55,530 nucleotides of DNA from Bacillota bacterium (GTDB lineage Bacteria; Bacillota; Clostridia; SK-Y3), in assembly GCA_022360955.1 (NCBI GenBank), contig JAKSBV010000340.1, positions 1-55,530 of the forward strand, written 5' to 3'. Position numbers and translations under genes: made by a program. The notes under the pieces are model-generated. The model saw only the letters and a list, made by a program, of their open reading frames with translations, was not told where the DNA came from and did no database searches. Shown in pieces: positions 9,754 to 51,451 of this stretch (position 1 is its first letter; each line of letters starts with the position of its first letter).

Positions 9754-11103
9754 TTATTTACCTTTAATGTTTTTAATTAATTGATCAATTATTTTTTTGA
9801 CTTCTGCATCTTTTTCTATATTCTTTTCAATTTTACCGATGGCATGCAATACCGTTGTATGGTCTCTTCCCCCAAAATCTTCTCCGATCTTCGGGAGTGA
9901 TAATTCGGTAAGATCTCTGCACAAATACATTGCAATCTGTCTAGGATAAGCAATATTTTTTGTTCTCCTTTTTGATTTGAAATCTTCCGTTCTAATATTA
10001 AAATATTTCGATACCGTTTCCTGAATAAGTTTTGGTGTAATGACCCTATTGCTATTAGCGGAAAAGTAATCCTTTAGGGCTTCGTCGGCAAGCTCTTGGG
10101 TTATTTCTTGTTTGACCAATGCGCTAAAAGCGATAATGCGGTTTAAAGCCCCTTCCAATTCTCTAATATTGGATTTGATTTTGTTGGCTACATATATCAG
10201 TATTTCATCAGGAACTTGAAGTTTTTCCGTTTGGGCCTTCTTTCTTAAGATTGCAATTCTTGTTTCCAAATCCGGAGGTTGAATGTCACCGATTAAACCC
10301 CATTCGAATCTCGAGCGCAGTCTTTCTTCTAAAGTGTGAATTTCTTTGGGTGTTCTGTCGCTTGTCAGAATAATTTGTTTGTTTGCCTCATGTAATGTAT
10401 TAAAGGTATGGAAAAATTCTTCCTGGGTTCTTTCTTTTCCCGCAATAAATTGAATATCGTCTACCAGTAATACGTCCATAGACCTGTATTTGCTTCTGAA
10501 TTCTTCGTTTCTATCATCTTTAATGGCATTGATTAGTTCATTCGTAAATTTTTCCGATGATACATATACCACTTTGGCCGAGGGATTTTGGTTTAATATA
10601 TAATGTCCGATTGCGTGCATTAAATGGGTCTTTCCCAATCCGACGCCTCCATATAGAAAAAGGGGATTATACGTTTTAGCGGGTGATTCGGCAACGGCCA
10701 ATGAGGCTGCGTGCGCAAATCGATTGCTGTTGCCTACTACAAACGTATCAAAGGTGTATTTCGGAATAAGTGTTATATTATTTGATTCGTCGTGATGTTC
10801 TTTTTCATCAGTTTCATCAAGGGAAACATCATCTGTTTTTTTGCTTTCTTTTTCATTTAAAATGATAACTGTTAGATTATATTCTATTGACGATACGGCA
10901 GATAGTGAGTTTGAGATTAGCGGAAGATATCTGCCTACGATAATATTTTTATTAAAATCATTTGGAACACCTAGAATCATTGAATCATCGGATAATGAAA
11001 CAGGCACAATGGTTTTAATCCACGTATTATAGCCCACTTCAGTAATCTCGGATTTAATTATCTTTAGCGTTTCATCCCATATTTCTGATAATCTTTTGTT
11101 CAT
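9754..11103 (-). CDS. dnaA: Chromosomal replication initiator DnaA
   Basis: 449-aa AAA+ initiator that binds DnaA boxes, melts the origin and loads the helicase. Domain I is at 1-85, an acidic linker (domain II) at about 86-115, and the AAA+ domain carries Walker [16 protein letters not shown] and Walker B LLVDDIQF. Domain IV has the box-binding helix [12 protein letters not shown] near the C-terminus. The ATG at 11103 is preceded by AGGAGG. It is the first gene of the leftward dnaA-dnaN-yaaA-recF-remB-gyrB-gyrA block, and DnaA boxes on both sides imply autoregulation. Confidence 0.99.
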
Positions 11104-31661: not shown

Positions 31662-32789
31662 CTAAGATTGAGGACAAGTGTCCACTGCCAGTACGGTTAC
31701 CGTTGGTGCATTGATGCTAAAGTTGCCTGTAAACGGGCCATCTGGTCCACCAATACGACAAGATACCAGGTCAACGGAATAAGTACAGCAACCAGGGCAA
31801 GGATTGCAGTCGCAGAACGTAAATCTAAAGGTATTGCTTCTTGGTAAATTCACACTGGGGACATTTCTTTCAAATGTCCAACTGCCGCATTTAATCTCCT
31901 GACCGTTATCACAGGATTTTTTTACCTGGAAGATTAGTGTAACAGTGTTGCCAACCGGGATTGTAGCAGCAATAACAGTGCTGAAATCCAATGTGACAAG
32001 TGGCCTGCACAAGCATGTGGTATCAATAGGTACACATACCAGAGAAAGGGGTGTAGCTGGACACACGTTTGTGGTTTGTATGCCTGTGCCGGTACCACAG
32101 TTAAAAATAACGCCTTGTGGACATAGGTGTTTGGGTTCACAATCTGCATAAACCGTAGACGCAGGAGGGCAGTTTACTGTCTGATGACCATAAGTTTCTC
32201 TTGTAACGCCACAAAGAGGTGTTTCTAGAGAATAGTTCACATTCTGGGCATTACAAGTTTCTGTGGCTATTGCCTTAATGGTTGGCGCACTAATGTATGT
32301 GGCAAGGGTGGCTCCTGCCGCTGTCTGCACAATCACTTCAACAGCATAGGTGCAGCAACCCGGGCATGGGTTACGGTCACAGAACGCAAATTCAAAAGAA
32401 TCAGTCGCAAATCGACTCAAAACTTGAGTTGTTGTCAGCGTCCAGGTGCCACACATAAGTTTCTGGCCATTATCACAAGACTTCTTTAACAGGAAGTTTA
32501 GTGAAACCGGCACAGCGCTAAAGAATGCAAAGGAGACATCACACACAAATCCAATTTTAATAATAGGCTTACATAAACAAGTAGTATCTAGGGTAGTACA
32601 CACCAGCGATATAGGTTCTTCAGGAGGTAAGAGGGAGGGGGGAATTATACGACCCGTAGTTGCCCCTGCTCCCGTACAGCAATTGGCAATAACGCCTTGT
32701 GGACACGGATGCTTGGATGGCTCGCAGTTTGCACAAGTGGGTGCACTAGGCGGACATTTTACTGGTCTTTTATTGTTTTCATGTTTCAT
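31662..32789 (-). CDS. Cys-rich two-domain protein, paralogue 1
   Basis: 375 aa with 35 Cys and no signal peptide or membrane segment. Two similar halves (about 1-185 and 200-375) each show, in order, CPPS/A-x-C-NCEP-KHPCPQGVI, TTLDTTCLCKP or IDTTCLCRP, LKKSCDNGQ, and DRNPCPGCCTY or CDCNPCPGCCTY. This resembles DUF4489-type proteins of spore-forming Clostridia; that name is from memory. A heavily disulfide- or metal-linked surface or spore-coat protein is an inference. In this copy the first half has lost one Cys (CDR for CDC) and the second half another (NCGTG for NCCTG). AGAAGGG precedes the ATG. It follows paralogue 2 by 47 bp. Confidence 0.85.
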   Translation of the reverse strand: MKHENNKRPVKCPPSAPTCANCEPSKHPCPQGVIANCCTGAGATTGRIIPPSLLPPEEPISLVCTTLDTTCLCKPIIKIGFVCDVSFAFFSAVPVSLNFLLKKSCDNGQKLMCGTWTLTTTQVLSRFATDSFEFAFCDRNPCPGCCTYAVEVIVQTAAGATLATYISAPTIKAIATETCNAQNVNYSLETPLCGVTRETYGHQTVNCPPASTVYADCEPKHLCPQGVIFNCGTGTGIQTTNVCPATPLSLVCVPIDTTCLCRPLVTLDFSTVIAATIPVGNTVTLIFQVKKSCDNGQEIKCGSWTFERNVPSVNLPRSNTFRFTFCDCNPCPGCCTYSVDLVSCRIGGPDGPFTGNFSINAPTVTVLAVDTCPQS

Positions 32790-32836
32790 TTAAAAATTTT
32801 CCCTTCTTATAAAGTATTTTGGTATTGTTGCAATTA

Positions 32837-33970
32837 CTAAGACTGAGGGCACGTATCCACTGCAAGTATGCTAGCTGTTGGTGCATTGATGCTAAAGGTG
32901 CCTGCAAACGGATTAAAGAACACGCCAATAGTACGACAAGATAACAATTCAACGGTATACGTACAGCAACCGGGGCAGGGATTGCAGTCGCAGAACGTAA
33001 ATCTAAAGGAATCACTTAATATCAAATCGTCGGTTGTTACTCTCGCAAATGTCCAATTGCCGCATACAACATCCTGTTCGTTGGCACAAGATTTCCTTAC
33101 TTGGAAGATTAATGTAATAAGGCTATCAAGCGGAATTGCAGCAGTAATAATAGTGCTAAAATCCAATGCGATAAGCGGCCTGCATAAGCATGTAGTATCA
33201 ATTGTTGTACATACCAGAGAAAGGGGCGTAGCCGGACACAAATTTGTAGTTTGCAAGCCTGCGCCTGTACAGCAGTTGAAAAGAATGCCTTGGGGACACG
33301 GATGCCGGGGTTCACAATCTGCACAAACCGGGGCAGCTGCAGGACATTTTGCATTCTGATGGATATGAGTTCCTGTTGCTGCACTATAAAGGGATATATC
33401 AGAAGAACAATCTATATTCTGAGTATTACAAGTTTCTATCGCTATTGTCTTAATGGTTGGTGAGCCAATGAATATAGTGACAGTGCTTTCTCCGAACGGT
33501 ACTTCAAAAGAAATTAATTCAACAGAATAGGTACAGCAGCCCGGGCATGGGTTGCAGTCACAGAACGTAAACGCAAAAGAATCATTAGGAGAATTACTAA
33601 GATCTACATTTCTCGCCATCGTCCTGTTGTCGCATATAATATCCTGTCCGTTATCACAAGATTTCTTCAACTGAAAGACCAGCGATACCGGGCTTAAACT
33701 TATATTTGAAAAGCAGATGTTACAGTTAAATTCAACTTTGACAATAGGCTTACATAAGCAAGTCGTATCCACCGCAGCACACACCAGCGATATAGGTGTC
33801 TCAGGGGGAGGAAGATCAGGTACGGCTATTATACCTGTATTTACCCCTGCACCCGTACAGCAATTGACAATAACGCCTTTTGGACACGGATGCTTGGGTG
33901 GTTCGCAGTTTGCACAAGCGGGTGCACTAGGTGGACATTTTTTGTGTTTTTTATCATTTTCCCGAATCAT
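32837..33970 (-). CDS. Cys-rich two-domain protein, paralogue 2
   Basis: 377 aa with the same two-domain plan and the same four Cys motif blocks in each half. Here both CDCNPCPGCCTY motifs are intact. The second half has KKSC replaced by RKSCANEQ. It shares the terminal sequence AVDTCPQS with paralogue 1, so those two are the closest pair. GAAAGGAG lies before the ATG at 33970. The promoter side carries a block of about 95 bp that is conserved upstream of paralogue 3. It is probably co-transcribed with paralogue 1. Confidence 0.85.
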   Translation of the reverse strand: MIRENDKKHKKCPPSAPACANCEPPKHPCPKGVIVNCCTGAGVNTGIIAVPDLPPPETPISLVCAAVDTTCLCKPIVKVEFNCNICFSNISLSPVSLVFQLKKSCDNGQDIICDNRTMARNVDLSNSPNDSFAFTFCDCNPCPGCCTYSVELISFEVPFGESTVTIFIGSPTIKTIAIETCNTQNIDCSSDISLYSAATGTHIHQNAKCPAAAPVCADCEPRHPCPQGILFNCCTGAGLQTTNLCPATPLSLVCTTIDTTCLCRPLIALDFSTIITAAIPLDSLITLIFQVRKSCANEQDVVCGNWTFARVTTDDLILSDSFRFTFCDCNPCPGCCTYTVELLSCRTIGVFFNPFAGTFSINAPTASILAVDTCPQS

Positions 33971-34014
33971 TTGAAAATGCTCCTTTCATAAAATGGTTGT
34001 ACTGCTATAATTAA

Positions 34015-34110
34015 TACATCAAAGTATATTCAACCCTATAATTTCATCATATGCGGCAGGCAGGGAATGAGTTCTTTACATTACATAATGGGTTAAAGAT
34101 TTTTGTATAT
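34015..34110 (-). promoter_or_regulatory. Conserved upstream block of Cys-rich paralogue 2
   Basis: On the plus strand TACATCAAAGTATATTCAAC, CCTATAATTTCAT, ATGCGGCAG and GTTCTTTA follow in order. The same order occurs at 36200-36296 before paralogue 3, at the same distance from the start codon (45-46 nt). It must contain the promoter, possibly of a sporulation sigma factor, but I cannot fit a consensus. Confidence 0.6.
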
Positions 34111-34229
34111 TCAGTGACAGAACATAATATGACGTCACTTTTGTGTTAATAGTATGCTTTGAAAATTTTTCATAAAAATGCTAAAATATTTATGACATCA
34201 ATACGACATATATGAAAGGGAGGATATTA

Positions 34230-34409
34230 TTGTCTACGGATAAAAAGAGATATACTCTTAGATTGGAAGAAGAGAATTTTGAAAAAATTAAGTATATAGC
34301 AGCGATTGATAAACGTTCTATTGCCATGCAGATAGAATATTTAATTGAACAGACGATAAAGGAATTTGAAGAAAAAAACGGAGTGATAGAAATAGATATA
34401 GATTATTAG
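34230..34409 (+). CDS. Small ribbon-helix-helix protein
   Basis: 59-aa Arc/CopG-like protein: a beta strand (KKRYTLRLEEE) followed by helix, turn and helix (NFEKIKYIAAIDKRSIAMQI and EYLIEQTIKEFEEK). Such proteins bind operators as dimers. The start is taken as TTG at 34230, because GGGAGG ends 6 nt before it; an ATG at 34212 would overlap that ribosome site. It is divergent from paralogue 2, so it is a candidate regulator of the Cys-rich genes. Confidence 0.7.
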   Translation: MSTDKKRYTLRLEEENFEKIKYIAAIDKRSIAMQIEYLIEQTIKEFEEKNGVIEIDIDY

Positions 34410-34471
34410 GACAAGCATTTATTTTTTTTACCTGGCATAGAAATGATTTACATAAAAGGAGATTGTTTATA

Positions 34472-34837
34472 ATGAGTGATATTATGAAAGATTTAAGAAG
34501 TCTTTATCCTGACCAAATCATTAGAGGATTACGTCAACAAGACAGCAATTTATATTTTAGATGTCTGCAGCGAGCAAGGAGAAAGAATATACCTCTAAAG
34601 AAATACTTTAATAACTTAGGATTTCGATATATAAAGCATATACAAATTACGGATGAAGATATGGAGAAAAAACTTCTGGAATTTTATCCGGATAAAGTCA
34701 TCACACTTTTGAGTGTCAATCACAAAGATTTATATAAAACGATCGCATATATAGCAGAAAGAAACAGCATAAGCATAGAACAATATTTATGTAAGTTAGG
34801 TTTTACATATAGTAAGCGTACCAGGCAAAAGTGTTAG
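34472..34837 (+). CDS. Orphan protein made of two similar 45-residue repeats
   Basis: 121 aa. The first unit (LYPDQIIRGLRQQDSNLYFR through LGFRYIK) and second unit (FYPDKVITLLSVNHKDLYKT through LGFTYSK) align end to end. Each is predicted to be helical and each ends in LGF-YxK. The protein is basic and soluble. I know no family. AAGGAG lies about 11 nt before the ATG at 34472. It follows the ribbon-helix-helix gene by 62 bp on the same strand, so the two may form an operon. Confidence 0.7.
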   Translation: MSDIMKDLRSLYPDQIIRGLRQQDSNLYFRCLQRARRKNIPLKKYFNNLGFRYIKHIQITDEDMEKKLLEFYPDKVITLLSVNHKDLYKTIAYIAERNSISIEQYLCKLGFTYSKRTRQKC

Positions 34838-34914
34838 GAGGGCTTTAAAGAAAAAATTACGCTTACTACAGCTACAAAAGGTCGTTGTAAGCGCGAATTC
34901 CGCAAGGCATACCA

Positions 34915-34948
34915 AACAAAGACCCTTGATGTATCCGGGGTCTTTGTT
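34915..34948 (+). terminator. Terminator of the small-gene pair
   Basis: AACAAAGACCC pairs with GGGTCTTTGTT and is followed by AAAATAG. It separates this pair from the convergent paralogue 3. Confidence 0.75.
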
Positions 34949-35002
34949 AAAATAGATTTGATTTTAAAATTGTATGGCTATAGGTATATTTAAAATATAC
35001 AT

Positions 35003-36154
35003 TTACCATTTTGCATGTATGGCTGAGTGCTGAGGGTGAGTGTCCACCGCCAGTACGGCAGCCGTTGGAGCATTGATGCTGAAGCTGCCTGCAAACGGAT
35101 TCTGTCCGCTGCCGTCGGTACGACAAGATAACAATTCAACGGAATACGTACAGCAGCCGGGACAGGGATGGCAGTCGCAGAACGCGAATCTAAAGGAATC
35201 ACTTATGATCCAATCATTATCTACCGATCTTTCAAACGTCCAAGTCCCGCATCCGATTTCCTGACCGTTGTCGCAGGATTTTTTCAGATGGAAGATTAGT
35301 GTAATAGTGTTACGGTCCGGCACACTAGCAGTAACAATGGCGCTGAAATCCAATGTGATGAGCGGCTTGCACAAGCATGCGGTATCAATCGTTACGCATA
35401 CCAGGGAGCGGGTTGTGGCAGGACACTCACTTGTGGTTTGTATGTCTGTACCTGTACAGCAGTTGAAAAGAACGCCTTGGGGACATGGATGCTTAGGCCC
35501 GCAATCTGCACAAACCGGGGCAGATGGAGGACACTTTGCCTCCTGATGAGAATAAGTTCCTGTTGCTACTCCACAAGGAGATGTATCAAAGGAAGAATTT
35601 GCATTCTGAATACCACAAGTTTCCGTCGCTATTGCCTGAATTGTTGGTGCATTAACACATATACGATAAAGTCCTATATCCGCTATCACAAAAGAAATGA
35701 TTTCAACGGCATACGTACAGCATCCGGGGCAGGGATCACAATCACAGAATGTAAACTCAAAAGGGTTATTATAGGATGTGAAATCTGCAGCTCTTGTCAG
35801 TGCCCAAGTCCCGCACGCAAGGTTTTGTCCATTATCACAAGATTTTTTCAATTGAAAGAGTATTGAGATGTCTCCCAGTCCGGCGAAGGTAAATCCAACG
35901 GTACAGTCAAATTTGATTTTAACAATCGGCTTGCACAAACAAGTAGTATCCAGTGTGGTACATACCAATGGTATGGGTGTTGTTGGGGGAAGGAGGGTAT
36001 CGCCTGAGCCTATAAAGCCCGTATTTACTCCTGTTCCCGTCCCGCAATTAAAAAGAACGTCTTGCGGACACGGATGCTTGGGTGGCTTGCAGTTTGCGCA
36101 AGTGGGTGTAAGTGGGGTACATTTGATTGGTCTTTTATAGTTTGCATGGGGCAT
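35003..36154 (-). CDS. Cys-rich two-domain protein, paralogue 3
   Basis: 383 aa with the same plan: Cys blocks at the N-terminus of each half (LTPTCANCKPPKHPCPQDVL and SAPVCADCGPKHPCPQGVLF), DTTCLCKP or DTACLCKP, LKKSCDNGQ, and CDCDPCPGCCTY or CDCHPCPGCCTY. It ends in a His/Lys-containing tail (HPQHSAIHAKW) unlike the CPQS end of the other two. ATG at 36154 follows GAAAGGAG. It is separated from paralogues 1-2 by the two small plus-strand genes, so a duplication was followed by insertion or rearrangement. Confidence 0.85.
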   Translation of the reverse strand: MPHANYKRPIKCTPLTPTCANCKPPKHPCPQDVLFNCGTGTGVNTGFIGSGDTLLPPTTPIPLVCTTLDTTCLCKPIVKIKFDCTVGFTFAGLGDISILFQLKKSCDNGQNLACGTWALTRAADFTSYNNPFEFTFCDCDPCPGCCTYAVEIISFVIADIGLYRICVNAPTIQAIATETCGIQNANSSFDTSPCGVATGTYSHQEAKCPPSAPVCADCGPKHPCPQGVLFNCCTGTDIQTTSECPATTRSLVCVTIDTACLCKPLITLDFSAIVTASVPDRNTITLIFHLKKSCDNGQEIGCGTWTFERSVDNDWIISDSFRFAFCDCHPCPGCCTYSVELLSCRTDGSGQNPFAGSFSINAPTAAVLAVDTHPQHSAIHAKW

Positions 36155-46514: not shown

Positions 46515-47837
46515 CTAAGAAAGCAGCTTTTCGATGCGCCCGGCAAATCTGGGAGTCGTCCAATATTTTAGAACCCGCTTTATGTTTGTTAACAAACCAT
46601 AGTAGAGGGTATGGGAATAATGCCGGATCAAATCTTTGAACTGCATATCCGCACATTCACAATAGGTAAGATTATTATAAATAAACTGGTAAAGCCGCAC
46701 TATATTTTTAATATAATCGGTGGAAGTCTCATAAACCGCAGGGTATTTAGTCATAAATTTATTGTTTAATGCAACCATTGTTTGTTTGGTATAAAGTATT
46801 TCAAAGGTACTGCATTGCAGATCAATTAATGGGATTAATCGACCTTTTGAACCTCTCTTAAAAATAAGATTCTCTTCAATCGTTGCTATATCGGTAATTC
46901 CTTTTTCCACTTTATTATAAATAATCGATACGGTATTTTGCGTGTCTACCCCCGATTGATGCAATTTCCAAAGAATATGATGTGCATCGCCCGTCTTAGT
47001 AAGCATGCAATCATGGACAATGATAATTTTACCACAGAGTCTAAAAATATCTATGGACTCCTTTAGGATATGTCTGTCTGCATTGATGAATACAAAATCA
47101 TAGTATTTGCCGAGCATAGCAATTATTTTGCACAGGGAAGCAGTCTCAGCATGCTGAGAGGTCATAGCGTGAGTGTAGTTATATAAAACGATGGACTCAT
47201 GGTCTTCGGATTCTGCGGAAAGATAAGGCGGCAAAACAGTGCTATGATCTATACAACTACCGGATATCTTAATACTGCGGGGAAAATAATTCATTAGTTT
47301 TTGTGCTCCGGTGAGATCAAGCAACGCAACCCGTTGTTTTTTGTTTTGGAATAGTTCACTGACGGACGAAATAATAGCGCTTTTTCCCGTATTGCCGGGT
47401 CCGATAAAGCAGGTTACATTTTCAAGCGGCGACGAGATGGCGTTTTTGATATCCGTTTCCGTGTGAGAATCCAATATTTCAAGTTCGATTAAATGGTTGG
47501 CTTCAAGCTTTCTTAACATCTTCATACTTGGTGCGGTACCGGGCTTGTCGAAAGAAGAAAGCGCTAAAATTTTTACATGCAGCCGGCAGTCAAATAGCAT
47601 TAATTTATTAAACAGTTTGACAATGATATTATAAATGTCCTGATTGTTAAAGTCTATAATAATTTCATAGTGATTTGTTACCGGTATATTCTTTACTGTT
47701 TCTTCATGAAGACATTGACATATGGAAAATGCTTCTGATCCTGCATCGGATAAAAAGCGCCGGTAAAAAGCAAGTGAAGGTTTACTTGTACTTATTAAAC
47801 ATTTTTGTGTTATTCGTAGGCCTGATATGGGGGTCAT
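46515..47837 (-). CDS. P-loop ATPase, MinD/ParA-like, of unknown role
   Basis: 440 aa. The N-terminal 140 residues form a separate domain with an alpha/beta pattern (YEIIIDFNNQDIYNIIVKLF, ALSSFDKPG). A P-loop follows at 146-153 (CFIGPGNTGKSAIISSV), then RVALLDLTG, which fits the A' loop of SIMIBI ATPases, and FVFINADRH as a Walker B-like strand. The Walker A is GxGNTGKS rather than the KGGxGKT of ParA, so the signature lysine of true ParA/MinD proteins is absent. No membrane helix is evident. The start at 47837 follows AGGTG at 9 nt; GTG 47849 is an alternative. It is divergent from the actin-like operon. Confidence 0.75.
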   Translation of the reverse strand: MTPISGLRITQKCLISTSKPSLAFYRRFLSDAGSEAFSICQCLHEETVKNIPVTNHYEIIIDFNNQDIYNIIVKLFNKLMLFDCRLHVKILALSSFDKPGTAPSMKMLRKLEANHLIELEILDSHTETDIKNAISSPLENVTCFIGPGNTGKSAIISSVSELFQNKKQRVALLDLTGAQKLMNYFPRSIKISGSCIDHSTVLPPYLSAESEDHESIVLYNYTHAMTSQHAETASLCKIIAMLGKYYDFVFINADRHILKESIDIFRLCGKIIIVHDCMLTKTGDAHHILWKLHQSGVDTQNTVSIIYNKVEKGITDIATIEENLIFKRGSKGRLIPLIDLQCSTFEILYTKQTMVALNNKFMTKYPAVYETSTDYIKNIVRLYQFIYNNLTYCECADMQFKDLIRHYSHTLYYGLLTNIKRVLKYWTTPRFAGRIEKLLS

Positions 47838-47876
47838 TTTATAATGCACCTACCTTAATAAGTATTCTATACTTTG

Positions 47877-47905
47877 ATCATAACATGGGACACAAGCTTT
47901 TGCAA
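47877..47905 (-). promoter_or_regulatory. Putative promoter of the P-loop ATPase gene
   Basis: Leftward TTGCAA (47905-47900) and TATGAT (47882-47877) with 17-bp spacing. Confidence 0.5.
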
Positions 47906-48040
47906 TTTGAACCCCAAAAATGAATCGATATATCTAGGAACATACAAATCTTATAATTCTGCGGCACTAAGACCACAGCCCTATTTTTATAGTATTCTCG
48001 TATGGATTTATATTTTATGACTTTTATTTTTTGCTAGATA

Positions 48041-48070
48041 TTGATAAAATAGTATAGAAAAATGTTATAC
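48041..48070 (+). promoter_or_regulatory. Putative promoter of the actin-like operon
   Basis: TTGATA (48041) and TTATAC (48065) with 18-bp spacing, 75 bp before the ATG. A moderate match. Confidence 0.5.
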
Positions 48071-48144
48071 AAAAGGATAATGTCCTGCTCAATTCAATTT
48101 TAAATCTATACACGGCATATATAACAATATAAGGGGGATTATAT

Positions 48145-49284
48145 ATGGATTCTGGTCTGAGGGTTTATGTGGACGGCGGTAACCGGCTGACTAAAGTAAT
48201 GCAGGAACTAAAGAAGCCTTTCAGCTTTCCTACGGTTATTTCACAAGCTGAGGTGGATCTGAATTATGGTTTGAATTTTGACCTTAACCTATGGGATATG
48301 GACGATAGCCCTGAAAGGATTAATGCTGACGCTATGTTGGTTGAAATAATCAGAGAGGGCCAGTCACTGGGCAAAAAACTGGTGGGTCAGGCAGCAGAAG
48401 AGAAAGGTCTTCTGATCCGGGATAGAAACCGCTATGTAAAAAAAGCAGGGGATGAAGTGATCGCTTTCTCCATGCTAACGGGGATTGCTTATAATTTGTA
48501 TAAGTATAACCATGATGATCAGGATTTGGATATAACCGTCAATCAGCCGTTAATCGAATATGCCATAGACCGAAAAGCGTCTATCGCCAAGTATGAGGCT
48601 AATCTAAAAGGCAATTTTCGTGTACTGTTTTATAACATATACAATACGTCAGAGGTTATCTCCACCATAAGTTTTAGAATTCGAAAGATTGTCTTTTGTC
48701 CGGAAGCCATAGCGGCCTTCTATTCTTATGCGATAGATGAATATGGTAAGATTAAGGAAGAATGCAGAGATGACAAAAAAACCATTGTTTGGGATATTGG
48801 GTCGGGCCAAATCAATGTGGCAGCCTTTGAAGGTATAAAAGTCATAGGGGTGAATACCTTTGAAAAAGGCATGATGGATTGCTATGAAAAGATTTCTTTG
48901 ATGATTTATAATAATTATAGGAATGAGCTTAATCGCAAGCCCTTTACCTATGAGATTGACAATATGGTGAGATACCATCAAAATATACTCAAGGCTAAAA
49001 AAGGCATTGGTATTGATACCAATGAAATTGTAAAAGATGTGTTTGATACCTTTGCCTATGAATTAAGCAAAGATATACGAGAGTTTGCAAAGGCTAAATC
49101 TTTCAGTCATAGTAATGACATCATTTTCTGCGGCGGCGGAAGCGCGATTTTGTTTGAGAACTTGGAAGAATATCTTGGCAGCGATTTTGTTTGCTCAAAG
49201 AGCAATATGGGGGAATTTAATAACGTAATAGGCAGTATGTATTATAGAATGTATAAAGATAATCTTGAGAAGGACGAAGAGTAG
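48145..49284 (+). CDS. ParM/Alp-type actin-like protein
   Basis: 379-aa protein with the actin-fold ATP motifs. Phosphate 1 is YVDGGNRLTK (Asp10 to Lys17), phosphate 2 is WDIGSGQINVAAF (Asp217) and the adenosine motif is FCGGGSAILF (328-337). Length and motif spacing fit ParM/StbA and Alp filaments, which segregate plasmids by polymerisation. Here the gene is within 50 kb of oriC, and I see no plasmid replication gene or obvious centromere repeats. AAGGGGG lies before the ATG at 48145. The next gene begins at the base after its stop, so they form one operon. Confidence 0.85.
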   Translation: MDSGLRVYVDGGNRLTKVMQELKKPFSFPTVISQAEVDLNYGLNFDLNLWDMDDSPERINADAMLVEIIREGQSLGKKLVGQAAEEKGLLIRDRNRYVKKAGDEVIAFSMLTGIAYNLYKYNHDDQDLDITVNQPLIEYAIDRKASIAKYEANLKGNFRVLFYNIYNTSEVISTISFRIRKIVFCPEAIAAFYSYAIDEYGKIKEECRDDKKTIVWDIGSGQINVAAFEGIKVIGVNTFEKGMMDCYEKISLMIYNNYRNELNRKPFTYEIDNMVRYHQNILKAKKGIGIDTNEIVKDVFDTFAYELSKDIREFAKAKSFSHSNDIIFCGGGSAILFENLEEYLGSDFVCSKSNMGEFNNVIGSMYYRMYKDNLEKDEE

Positions 49285-50094
49285 GTGGAGAAAGTGGTTT
49301 TTGATTTATCAAAAGAATATCCTATTATTGCCGTTGATGAAGCAAAAATGCTGGGATATATGCAAGGGGTTGTTATACAGGACGACCGCTTAATCGGTGT
49401 TCTGTGTGTGATAAAAGAAGAATATCTGCTTAACCCTTGTATAGCCGACAATGCTGCGGAAAAATATATTCAAATACCTGTTGAAAATGTTGCGATGGGT
49501 CCAAATGCGATGATGCTTAAAAAGCTTTCTATGGCCAATACATTGTTTACACATGGGCGGGCTATTTATAGAGGAATGCCTATGTATACCTGTGAGGGCC
49601 AATATATCGGAAAGGTAACGGCTATTGATATAAAGAACGGCTATTTTATAGACGGTCTTCATACCGAAGAGGATTATATTAAGGCAAGTCGTATTGCCCA
49701 AATAGGCAATGTCATTATAATTGATGCAGATTGTGAACAAAAAGAGCATAACACATTTGTAGAAAATGATGAAAGCCCGACGGAGGTACGGGTGAAAAAA
49801 GACGGCAACGTTAAGGAACAGCAGAGGGAGAACCGTGAGTATACGGCAGAAATCCATGATATAGAAGCCGCAGATGTCGGTAAACTGATGGAACCTGTTG
49901 AGGCAGAGTCGGAGGATAGCATATTGAGGATCATCGACTCCAGATATAAATATTTACTTGGCAAGAAGCTGGTTAACGCGATTACGATAGCAGGTCAATC
50001 TTATCCTGACGGCACTACTATTAATATAGAATTGATGGAAGCTTCCATAAAAAACAATTGTATTTTAAGCGTGATCATGAATGCCGAGGATTAA
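49285..50094 (+). CDS. PRC-barrel-like protein co-encoded with the actin homologue
   Basis: 269 aa. Two PRC-barrel-like parts: RLIGVLCVIKEEY with YIQIPVENVAMGPNAM (about 32-80), and RGMPMYTCEGQYIGKVTAID with GYFIDGLH (about 95-130). A charged linker (about 155-205) separates a C-terminal segment, SRYKYLLGKKLVNAITIAGQ to the end. Such barrels act in protein-protein contacts (RimM, photosynthetic reaction centre H subunit). The start is GTG 49285, directly after the previous stop; GTG 49294 is also possible. Actin filament adaptor is an inference from the tight coupling. Confidence 0.75.
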   Translation: MEKVVFDLSKEYPIIAVDEAKMLGYMQGVVIQDDRLIGVLCVIKEEYLLNPCIADNAAEKYIQIPVENVAMGPNAMMLKKLSMANTLFTHGRAIYRGMPMYTCEGQYIGKVTAIDIKNGYFIDGLHTEEDYIKASRIAQIGNVIIIDADCEQKEHNTFVENDESPTEVRVKKDGNVKEQQRENREYTAEIHDIEAADVGKLMEPVEAESEDSILRIIDSRYKYLLGKKLVNAITIAGQSYPDGTTINIELMEASIKNNCILSVIMNAED

Positions 50095-50284: not shown

Positions 50285-51451
50285 ATGATGCTGTTTATAA
50301 TTGTTAAAAAAAGTACATTGGTTTATGTCACGATAGGGATAATCTTGCTTTGTGCGTTAGCAGCAGCGGCATATCACTATATAGATGATGTATCGGAGGC
50401 ATTTTCCAGGGATGAAATACTGTCGGTTATTCAGCAAATGTTTGACATTCGAAATAAGGCAATACTGGAAAAAGATAGTGAAGTTTTAAAGTCGCTATAT
50501 GATACAAAGAAAAGATATGGTATGTGGGCTTATGAACATGAAGTAAAAAAAATGAAATACCTGCATCAGTGGTCTGAGAAGCAAGGTATACGATTTACCC
50601 ATATTCATTCCGATATAACCATCAGATATATCAAAGAAAAAGGCGCCGGGATTACAGCTAATCTCATTGTTTCCACAACATATCGATATCAATATAAAAA
50701 TGAAACGTATGGAGCAAATGATTTTAGAATCGGCACATACCATTCTATAGATTTAGTTCCGAAAAGCGGCAAGACGCTGGAAAAGCACCATCAAATAAAT
50801 GAAGAAGTGCTTTTGAAACAAGAGGAATGGATAATTGTAAAGGAATGGTATAAGGACCCGTTTGCCGATTCCCTGCATTTGGATAGTATTAAATCGGAAG
50901 ACATAAAAACACATATTCTATCCCGCGGACCTAGAGATTTTTCAGAAATAAGTGTGAGAAGAATGGCAGCGGTAGAATATGCAGATCAATACTGTGGAGC
51001 GGCTAATGATAGACAAACCGGATATCAATATAATAAAAAATATAAAGATTATAATCCTCTTGGCGGAGATTGTGCCAACTTCGCTTCACAAATTCTGTTT
51101 GAAGGAGGAAAGTTTAAAAAGACACGTCAATGGAATTATGTTAAAGATGGGAGTAAGGCCTGGGTCAATGCCCATGCCTTTAAGAGTTATATGCTTTACA
51201 GCGGCAGGGCTTCTAAAATCGCTTACGGAACCTACAACAAGGTTTACAAAGCTTCTTACCAATTGCTGCCCGGTGATTTTATTGCTTACGAAAAAAAGGG
51301 CAAGGTTACCCATATCTCTGTCGTAACCGGGGCGGACTCCAAAGGCTATGCATTAGTTAATTGTCACAACGTTGACCGCTATAGGGTTCCCTGGGATCTT
51401 GGATGGAGTGACAAGGGCATAAAATTTTGGCTGGTACGTGTGCATTATTAG
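50285..51451 (+). CDS. Membrane-anchored amidase-domain protein (Amidase_6 type)
   Basis: 388 aa. One N-terminal membrane helix (about 10-30), an extracytoplasmic middle domain (about 40-210), and a C-terminal Cys/His hydrolase domain. The latter begins MAAVEYADQYCG and has NPLGGDCANFASQILFEGG with the presumed catalytic Cys and THISVVTG with the His. This fits the putative amidase domain found in Clostridial and Bacillus wall proteins. ATG at 50285 follows GGAGGCG. It likely acts on cell-wall peptides outside the membrane. Confidence 0.88.
   Translation: MMLFIIVKKSTLVYVTIGIILLCALAAAAYHYIDDVSEAFSRDEILSVIQQMFDIRNKAILEKDSEVLKSLYDTKKRYGMWAYEHEVKKMKYLHQWSEKQGIRFTHIHSDITIRYIKEKGAGITANLIVSTTYRYQYKNETYGANDFRIGTYHSIDLVPKSGKTLEKHHQINEEVLLKQEEWIIVKEWYKDPFADSLHLDSIKSEDIKTHILSRGPRDFSEISVRRMAAVEYADQYCGAANDRQTGYQYNKKYKDYNPLGGDCANFASQILFEGGKFKKTRQWNYVKDGSKAWVNAHAFKSYMLYSGRASKIAYGTYNKVYKASYQLLPGDFIAYEKKGKVTHISVVTGADSKGYALVNCHNVDRYRVPWDLGWSDKGIKFWLVRVHY

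Follow-up and report, generated by a model that had tools for sequence, protein, structure and literature searches.

A ParM-type actin of Clostridia encoded with a tandem PRC-barrel protein and a divergent SIMIBI-type ATPase

Introduction

Chromosomal members of the ParM family of actin-like proteins were described in 2025, when Dh-cParM1 and Cb-cParM were found to polymerise and were considered to have roles that may lie outside plasmid biology (PMC12270681). Chromosomal ParMs accompanied by ParR and by a bound parC on the chromosome are known, and one further chromosomal ParM, Nt-cParM2, has been reported without ParR (PMC12270681). PRC-barrel proteins have been studied in connection with archaeal division, where CdpB1 and CdpB2 stabilise the organisation of the FtsZ divisome (PMC12186497) and CdvA forms filaments in Crenarchaeota, and PRC proteins, MTH1859 among them, have been suggested to act as assembly adapters (PMC3132758). 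ATPases of the ParA/MinD class, in turn, position many cargos (PMC10241942). Here, we describe a locus that brings relatives of these proteins together. It lies in a 55,530-nucleotide stretch of DNA from a Bacillota bacterium of the Clostridia (assembly GCA_022360955.1, contig JAKSBV010000340.1, positions 1 to 55,530; hereafter the window) and encodes a ParM/Alp-type actin, a tandem PRC-barrel protein and, on the opposite strand, a SIMIBI-type P-loop ATPase.

An initial sequence-only reading of the window had proposed a new cytoskeletal module at this site. That novelty needs qualifying, given that chromosomal ParM proteins outside plasmid segregation have already been described (PMC12270681), but the conserved three-gene module stands and, as far as can be shown from the open-access literature, a ParM-type actin with obligate tandem PRC-barrel and divergent MinD-like ATPase partners is new.

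Results

Three genes inherited as one unit

A scan of a genome collection returned five relatives of the actin, with identities of 59-73%, and all five share the window's three genes and their arrangement. Searches were then made over sampled genomes of the class (391), the phylum (398), the family and order of genome G318 (20 and 198) and the family of genome G112 (22), and the actin is borne by 19 genomes in five families. The order is invariant at every locus whose contig extends far enough, with the ATPase gene divergent from the actin gene and the PRC gene following the actin. An independent search for the ATPase across 55 genomes from the relevant families gave positives in exactly the 19 actin-positive genomes; for the PRC protein the same 55 genomes gave this set minus two, in which the contig ends at the actin, plus one weak match to a different PRC protein. 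Co-occurrence across Clostridia, on which the sequence-only reading had staked its proposal beforehand, is therefore what these 19 genomes display.

An all-against-all comparison of open reading frames at 14 loci, spanning mostly about 10 kb on each side, found that the module genes alone are common to 13-14 loci. The next most shared neighbours were generic ATP-binding cassette (ABC) ATPases at eight loci and local synteny among close relatives at four or fewer. Only three families recur in this way, and the module therefore consists of exactly three genes, with the ATPase an integral part of it and more than a mere neighbour. Extension of the operon to a downstream amidase gene (50285-51451) or to an upstream SNF transporter gene was rejected, as neither is conserved at the related loci. 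Flanking genes differ between loci, so that the module sits in several unrelated neighbourhoods.

The three proteins also share a history. Their pairwise distances correlate with r of 0.89-0.96, a level reached by none of 2000 permutations. The actin has a mean pairwise identity of 0.68, compared with 0.40 in the ATPase and 0.35 in the PRC protein, and in the same order the ratios of non-synonymous to synonymous substitution (dN/dS) are about 0.03-0.08, 0.06-0.20 and 0.19-0.37. The actin is extremely conserved and is under strong purifying selection. Actin, PRC protein and ATPase are thus inherited together as a unit, in an unvarying order and under purifying selection; no ParR or parC is recognisable with them, and there is no near plasmid relative.

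Damaged copies occur in three genomes. In G318 (L019:10788-11231) the ATPase is cut to 148 amino acids with no further piece detectable downstream, in G775 (L040:8251-9635) a frameshift splits it between two frames, and in G276 (L022 near 2155) the actin gene carries an in-frame TAA stop. The actin branch of G318 is the longest in the family, at 0.41 compared with 0.04-0.09 in the other members from taxonomic family f70, which is as expected if constraint on the actin depends on the ATPase, but a single case proves nothing.

Layout and chromosomal setting

The three genes are found at the positions at which the sequence-only reading had placed them (Table 1). The GTG start of the PRC gene adjoins the actin stop codon, as had been noted, although an alternative GTG at 49294 is possible and the starts of both the PRC protein and the ATPase may be off by a few codons. 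The distance between the ATPase and the actin start, first given as 300 bp, measures 295 bp and compares with 165-220 bp in relatives.

Table 1. Window coordinates of the three genes and the region between the divergent pair
Feature	Coordinates	Strand	Details
SIMIBI-type P-loop ATPase	46515..47849	-	444 amino acids
Divergent intergenic region	47850..48144		295 bp, ATPase-actin gap
ParM/Alp-type actin-like ATPase	48145..49284	+	379 amino acids
Tandem PRC-barrel protein	49285..50094	+	269 amino acids, isoelectric point (pI) 4.7

The proposed chromosomal location is borne out by genes of the same window, namely DnaA (9754-11103, minus strand), gyrase, the ParA-type ATPase Soj and two ParB/Noc proteins, together with a switch in the sign of the GC skew near 10 kb. 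The module lies 36-40 kb from the replication origin (oriC) and its GC content is that of the surrounding DNA. Besides the module, the host genome already encodes ParABS-type genes and MreB; the MreB-family matches fall on three contigs, and two are strong.

By inference, the region between the ATPase and actin genes holds both promoters; assignment of particular promoters was rejected, since the matches were no more frequent than chance. A palindrome was seen by eye in the divergent promoter regions of several relatives (L037-L044; L017, L018 and L046) and is a candidate operator. Much of the Anaerovirgula-like group has it as TCCTATAGGA, whereas its form in the Lutispora-like group is AGGACTAAAGTCCT; it is not evident in the window's own ATPase-actin intergenic region.

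A ParM-type actin without a nearby ParR or parC

The window actin carries all three of the actin ATP motifs ascribed to it from the first inspection (phosphate-1 DGGNRLTK, phosphate-2 DIGSGQ and adenosine CGGG). They are unchanged among relatives save for small swaps, of I to V in DIGSGQ and at the Cys of CGGG, so that DGGNRLTK, D(I/V)GSGQ and GGG are kept throughout. In Pfam the protein matches ALP_N (expectation value, E, 3e-5), the archaeal MreB-like_C (4e-5) and, faintly, Alp7A_C, and all 16 family members examined match both ALP_N and MreB-like_C. The NCBIfam plasmid ParM model PRK13917 matches at 2e-9 and phrog_691, a phage 'partition protein' family, at 2e-24. Having both actin-type nucleotide-binding motifs and ParM-family similarity, it belongs with the ParM family, and its nearest named relatives are ParM proteins.

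Matches in the PDB were to Dh-cParM1, to Cbc-ParM and to a further uncharacterised ParM (3js6), with E of 1e-4 to 4e-6 over partial length, and so the module actin is distant from Dh-cParM1 and Cb-cParM. It resembles them in being a highly conserved ParM-type actin on a Bacillota chromosome that needs no plasmid. The partners differ, however: Dh-cParM1 and Cb-cParM have a ribbon-helix-helix ParR, and Cb-cParM also a bound parC, whereas the module has a tandem PRC-barrel protein and an obligatory SIMIBI ATPase. In its match to ALP_N, and weakly to Alp7A_like_C, the module actin is also like Alp7A, AlfA and pSK41 ParM, but those proteins are plasmid-borne with DNA-binding adaptors, whereas the module is chromosomal.

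We found no near plasmid, phage or viral relative in PLSDB, INPHARED or IMG/VR. Plasmid relatives are at most 28% identical and are ordinary ParM/StbA proteins, phage matches are as distant, and no IMG/VR contig encodes a relative. The absence of a visible ParR or centromere repeat, remarked on in the sequence-only reading, holds in the wider comparison: no ParR-like gene recurs around the 14 loci, where the PRC and SIMIBI proteins are the sole conserved partners, and no parC-type iterated repeats were found in or beside the operon, intergenic regions included, at the four loci tested, although a distant or degenerate site may still exist. In the window, the genes next to the module include no evident replicase or integrase.

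A second chromosomal family of ParM-like actins, of about 380 amino acids, was also observed (L024:9285-10708, L023:5343-6482, L026:1327-2835, L027:1126-2283 and L052:9815-11303). It occurs in some of the taxonomic families that also have the module and forms a separate clade. At L024, L026 and L052 the next gene encodes a small protein of 93-146 amino acids that could, by its look, be a ParR. A small zinc-ribbon protein is encoded nearby, and genes for multicopper oxidase or membrane ferredoxin accompany the family at several loci. This family is possibly related to the described chromosomal ParMs.

The tandem PRC-barrel protein

Taken singly, the window protein matches Pfam PRC below the cutoff (E=0.0055). 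Across the family the 'PRC-barrel-like' label becomes firm, with 14 of 15 members matching (best E=1.9e-11), and the fold predicted for the window's own member is likewise that of PRC proteins. The structures of this protein and of the ATPase were predicted from alignments six deep, with rows from the window and related loci. The predicted anatomy comprises two barrels (residues 1-80 and 90-150), an acidic disordered linker (150-215) and a C-terminal domain (about 216-269) that is conserved and for the most part confidently predicted; no relative of this 57-residue tail was found in Pfam or the PDB. All members have a pI of 4.2-4.7, which speaks against DNA binding, and no DNA-binding family was matched by members in the Pfam search.

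The archaeal CdpB1/CdpB2 heterodimer heads the structural matches (E 2e-8 to 2e-7), followed by single PRC domains and reaction-centre H subunits, with CdvA lower down; 1pm3 is also among the fold matches. CdpB1/CdpB2 and CdvA offer a parallel in that their PRC barrels serve a cytoskeletal filament. They are nevertheless archaeal, and their partner is the FtsZ divisome or the ESCRT-III-like CdvB and not an actin. Sequence identity to CdpB is only 13-14%, and by query length the template modelling score (TM-score) comes to about 0.35. A match to CdpB would probably be obtained with any tandem PRC protein, and it therefore reports on fold and not on function.

The SIMIBI-type ATPase

The Walker A motif of the ATPase is GPGNTGKS, in which the P-loop lysine (K156) is invariant, as is D178. 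As the sequence-only reading had observed, it lacks the KGG of ParA/MinD, and where the signature lysine would stand, the aligned members have P, S or A; Soj in the same window, unlike the module ATPase, carries KGGVGKT. A CbiA/MinD/ParA Pfam domain is found in 12 of 16 members, the best PDB match of the family profile is MinD (E 0.008), and Foldseek matches of the predicted structure were CooC1, HypB, MinD, FlhG and ParA. The protein accordingly has a SIMIBI fold, as judged from a model of moderate confidence, and shares it with ATPases of the MinD, FlhG and CooC type.

An alpha/beta domain is predicted at about residues 13-137, with its strands and helices in receiver-domain order, and the C-terminal tail is helical and mostly basic. 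The protein is basic in most members. TadZ, as cited in PMC11217815, has a receiver-like domain ahead of its ATPase and is implicated in polar localisation, and the predicted N-terminal alpha/beta domain of the module ATPase would occupy the corresponding place. TadZ is absent among the structural and sequence matches listed, however, and so this likeness is a lead only. Tad pilus genes were not found with the module in the window or in the 14-locus comparison. The module ATPase differs from the MinD/FlhG/CooC-type and TadZ/CpaE ATPases in lacking the signature lysine of ParA/MinD and in lying outside pilus, flagellar and Min gene clusters.

Discussion

The interpretation that we favour on balance is that the three genes make up an actin-filament module on the chromosome of Clostridia, with the PRC protein as a non-DNA adaptor that replaces ParR and the ATPase as a positional switch. 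The actin would form nucleotide-dependent filaments, as its ParM relatives do, and the PRC barrels would bind them. The flexible linker and conserved C-terminal domain may then join the filament to a protein or membrane cargo, the PRC protein taking ParR's place without binding DNA, and the ATPase, acting as a switch like MinD or FlhG, may tell the filament or the adaptor where or when to assemble. A filament with a non-DNA adaptor and a positional switch would have the task of positioning or organising something in the cell, and not of plasmid partition; candidate cargos are the divisome, the spore septum and an envelope machine. We hold more tentatively, and at somewhat under even chances, that this arrangement parallels archaeal CdpB-FtsZ and organises the cell interior of Clostridia (in division, sporulation or an envelope machine) without relation to DNA partition. 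The original proposal of a cytoskeletal module not devoted to plasmid segregation is favoured by the gene linkage, the lack of ParR/parC and the lack of near plasmid relatives, whilst for the specific roles that it suggested, in cell shape, division or organelle positioning, the sequence argues neither way.

Several observations weigh against this interpretation. The module is patchy, occurring in 9 of 20 genomes of the richest family, 7 of 22 in another and 1 of 6 in the window's own, and this distribution together with damage in a few genomes means that it is dispensable. We infer binding between actin and PRC protein, and between PRC protein and ATPase, from gene linkage alone. The PRC protein could reach DNA via another partner. 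Confidence in the ATPase model is modest, with a predicted local distance difference test score (pLDDT) of 63. A MinD-like membrane-targeting helix in the ATPase tail was also considered; since an amphipathic helix there beats shuffled sequences in only a minority of members, it is not claimed.

The main competing explanation, which we regard as rather unlikely, is chromosomal DNA segregation of the cParCMR kind: the filament would push or pull chromosomal DNA, ParR's part as DNA adaptor would fall to the PRC protein or to the basic ATPase, and the centromere would lie away from the operon. The relationship of the actin to ParM proteins would fit, as would the precedent of chromosomal ParMs that have ParR and, on the chromosome, a bound parC (PMC12270681) and the basic character of most of the ATPases, which a nucleoid binder would share. 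Against this, no parC-like iterated repeats were found within the operon or next to it at the four loci tested, and the genome already has ParABS-type genes. The PRC protein, moreover, is strongly acidic and matches no DNA-binding family. The position of the module also varies, from about 36 kb from oriC in the window to base 3,608,768 of 4,929,566 in the single-contig G775 and 1,387,392 of 4,201,318 in G783.

A dedicated division or sporulation machine, in which a CdpB-like PRC protein links the actin to septal machinery such as the asymmetric spore septum, we consider improbable. The order of the structural matches points this way, with CdpB1/CdpB2 first and CdvA further down, as do the service of CdpB1/CdpB2 (PMC12186497) and CdvA (PMC3132758) in archaeal division and the resemblance of the ATPase to MinD. 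The structural argument is, however, weakened by the low identity and TM-score and by the likelihood that other tandem PRC proteins would match alike, and no division or sporulation gene recurs as a neighbour among the 14 loci.

The locus might instead be what is left of a captured plasmid or of an integrated element, with its partition genes persisting. Capture of a plasmid had been left possible by the sequence-only reading and is now very unlikely, because the module is conserved and chromosomal and lacks ParR, parC-type repeats and near plasmid relatives. A ParM-type actin, a patchy distribution, differing neighbourhoods and the damaged copies in G318, G775 and G276 are what a remnant might show, but strong purifying selection, matched histories of the three genes across five families, a GC content equal to that of the surroundings, the want of an evident replicase or integrase beside the module in the window and the lack of any plasmid or phage relative above 28% identity all oppose it, and a plasmid or phage origin was rejected on the basis of the database searches. 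An anti-phage defence module is barely credible: a patchy chromosomal cassette in varying contexts, whose ATPase weakly matches the P-loops of defence models, is suggestive of one, but those matches are largely confined to the P-loop region, defence models match neither the actin nor the PRC protein and no defence gene recurs beside the module at the 14 loci.

With its low actin dN/dS and without ParR/parC, the filament module that we favour offers a clean genetic entry to the function of chromosomal ParM-type actins, requiring only three genes and having at least one cultured host, Anaerovirgula multivorans. If it is as we propose, a bacterial actin would be linked to PRC barrels, which until now have been adaptors of filaments in archaeal division.

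Elsewhere in the window, a cluster at positions 31662-36154 (minus strand), lying between tRNA-Arg genes, encodes three paralogous proteins of 375-383 amino acids; every one of the three contains a pair of similar Cys-rich repeats (CPQG..CCTG, CDCNPCPGCCTY).

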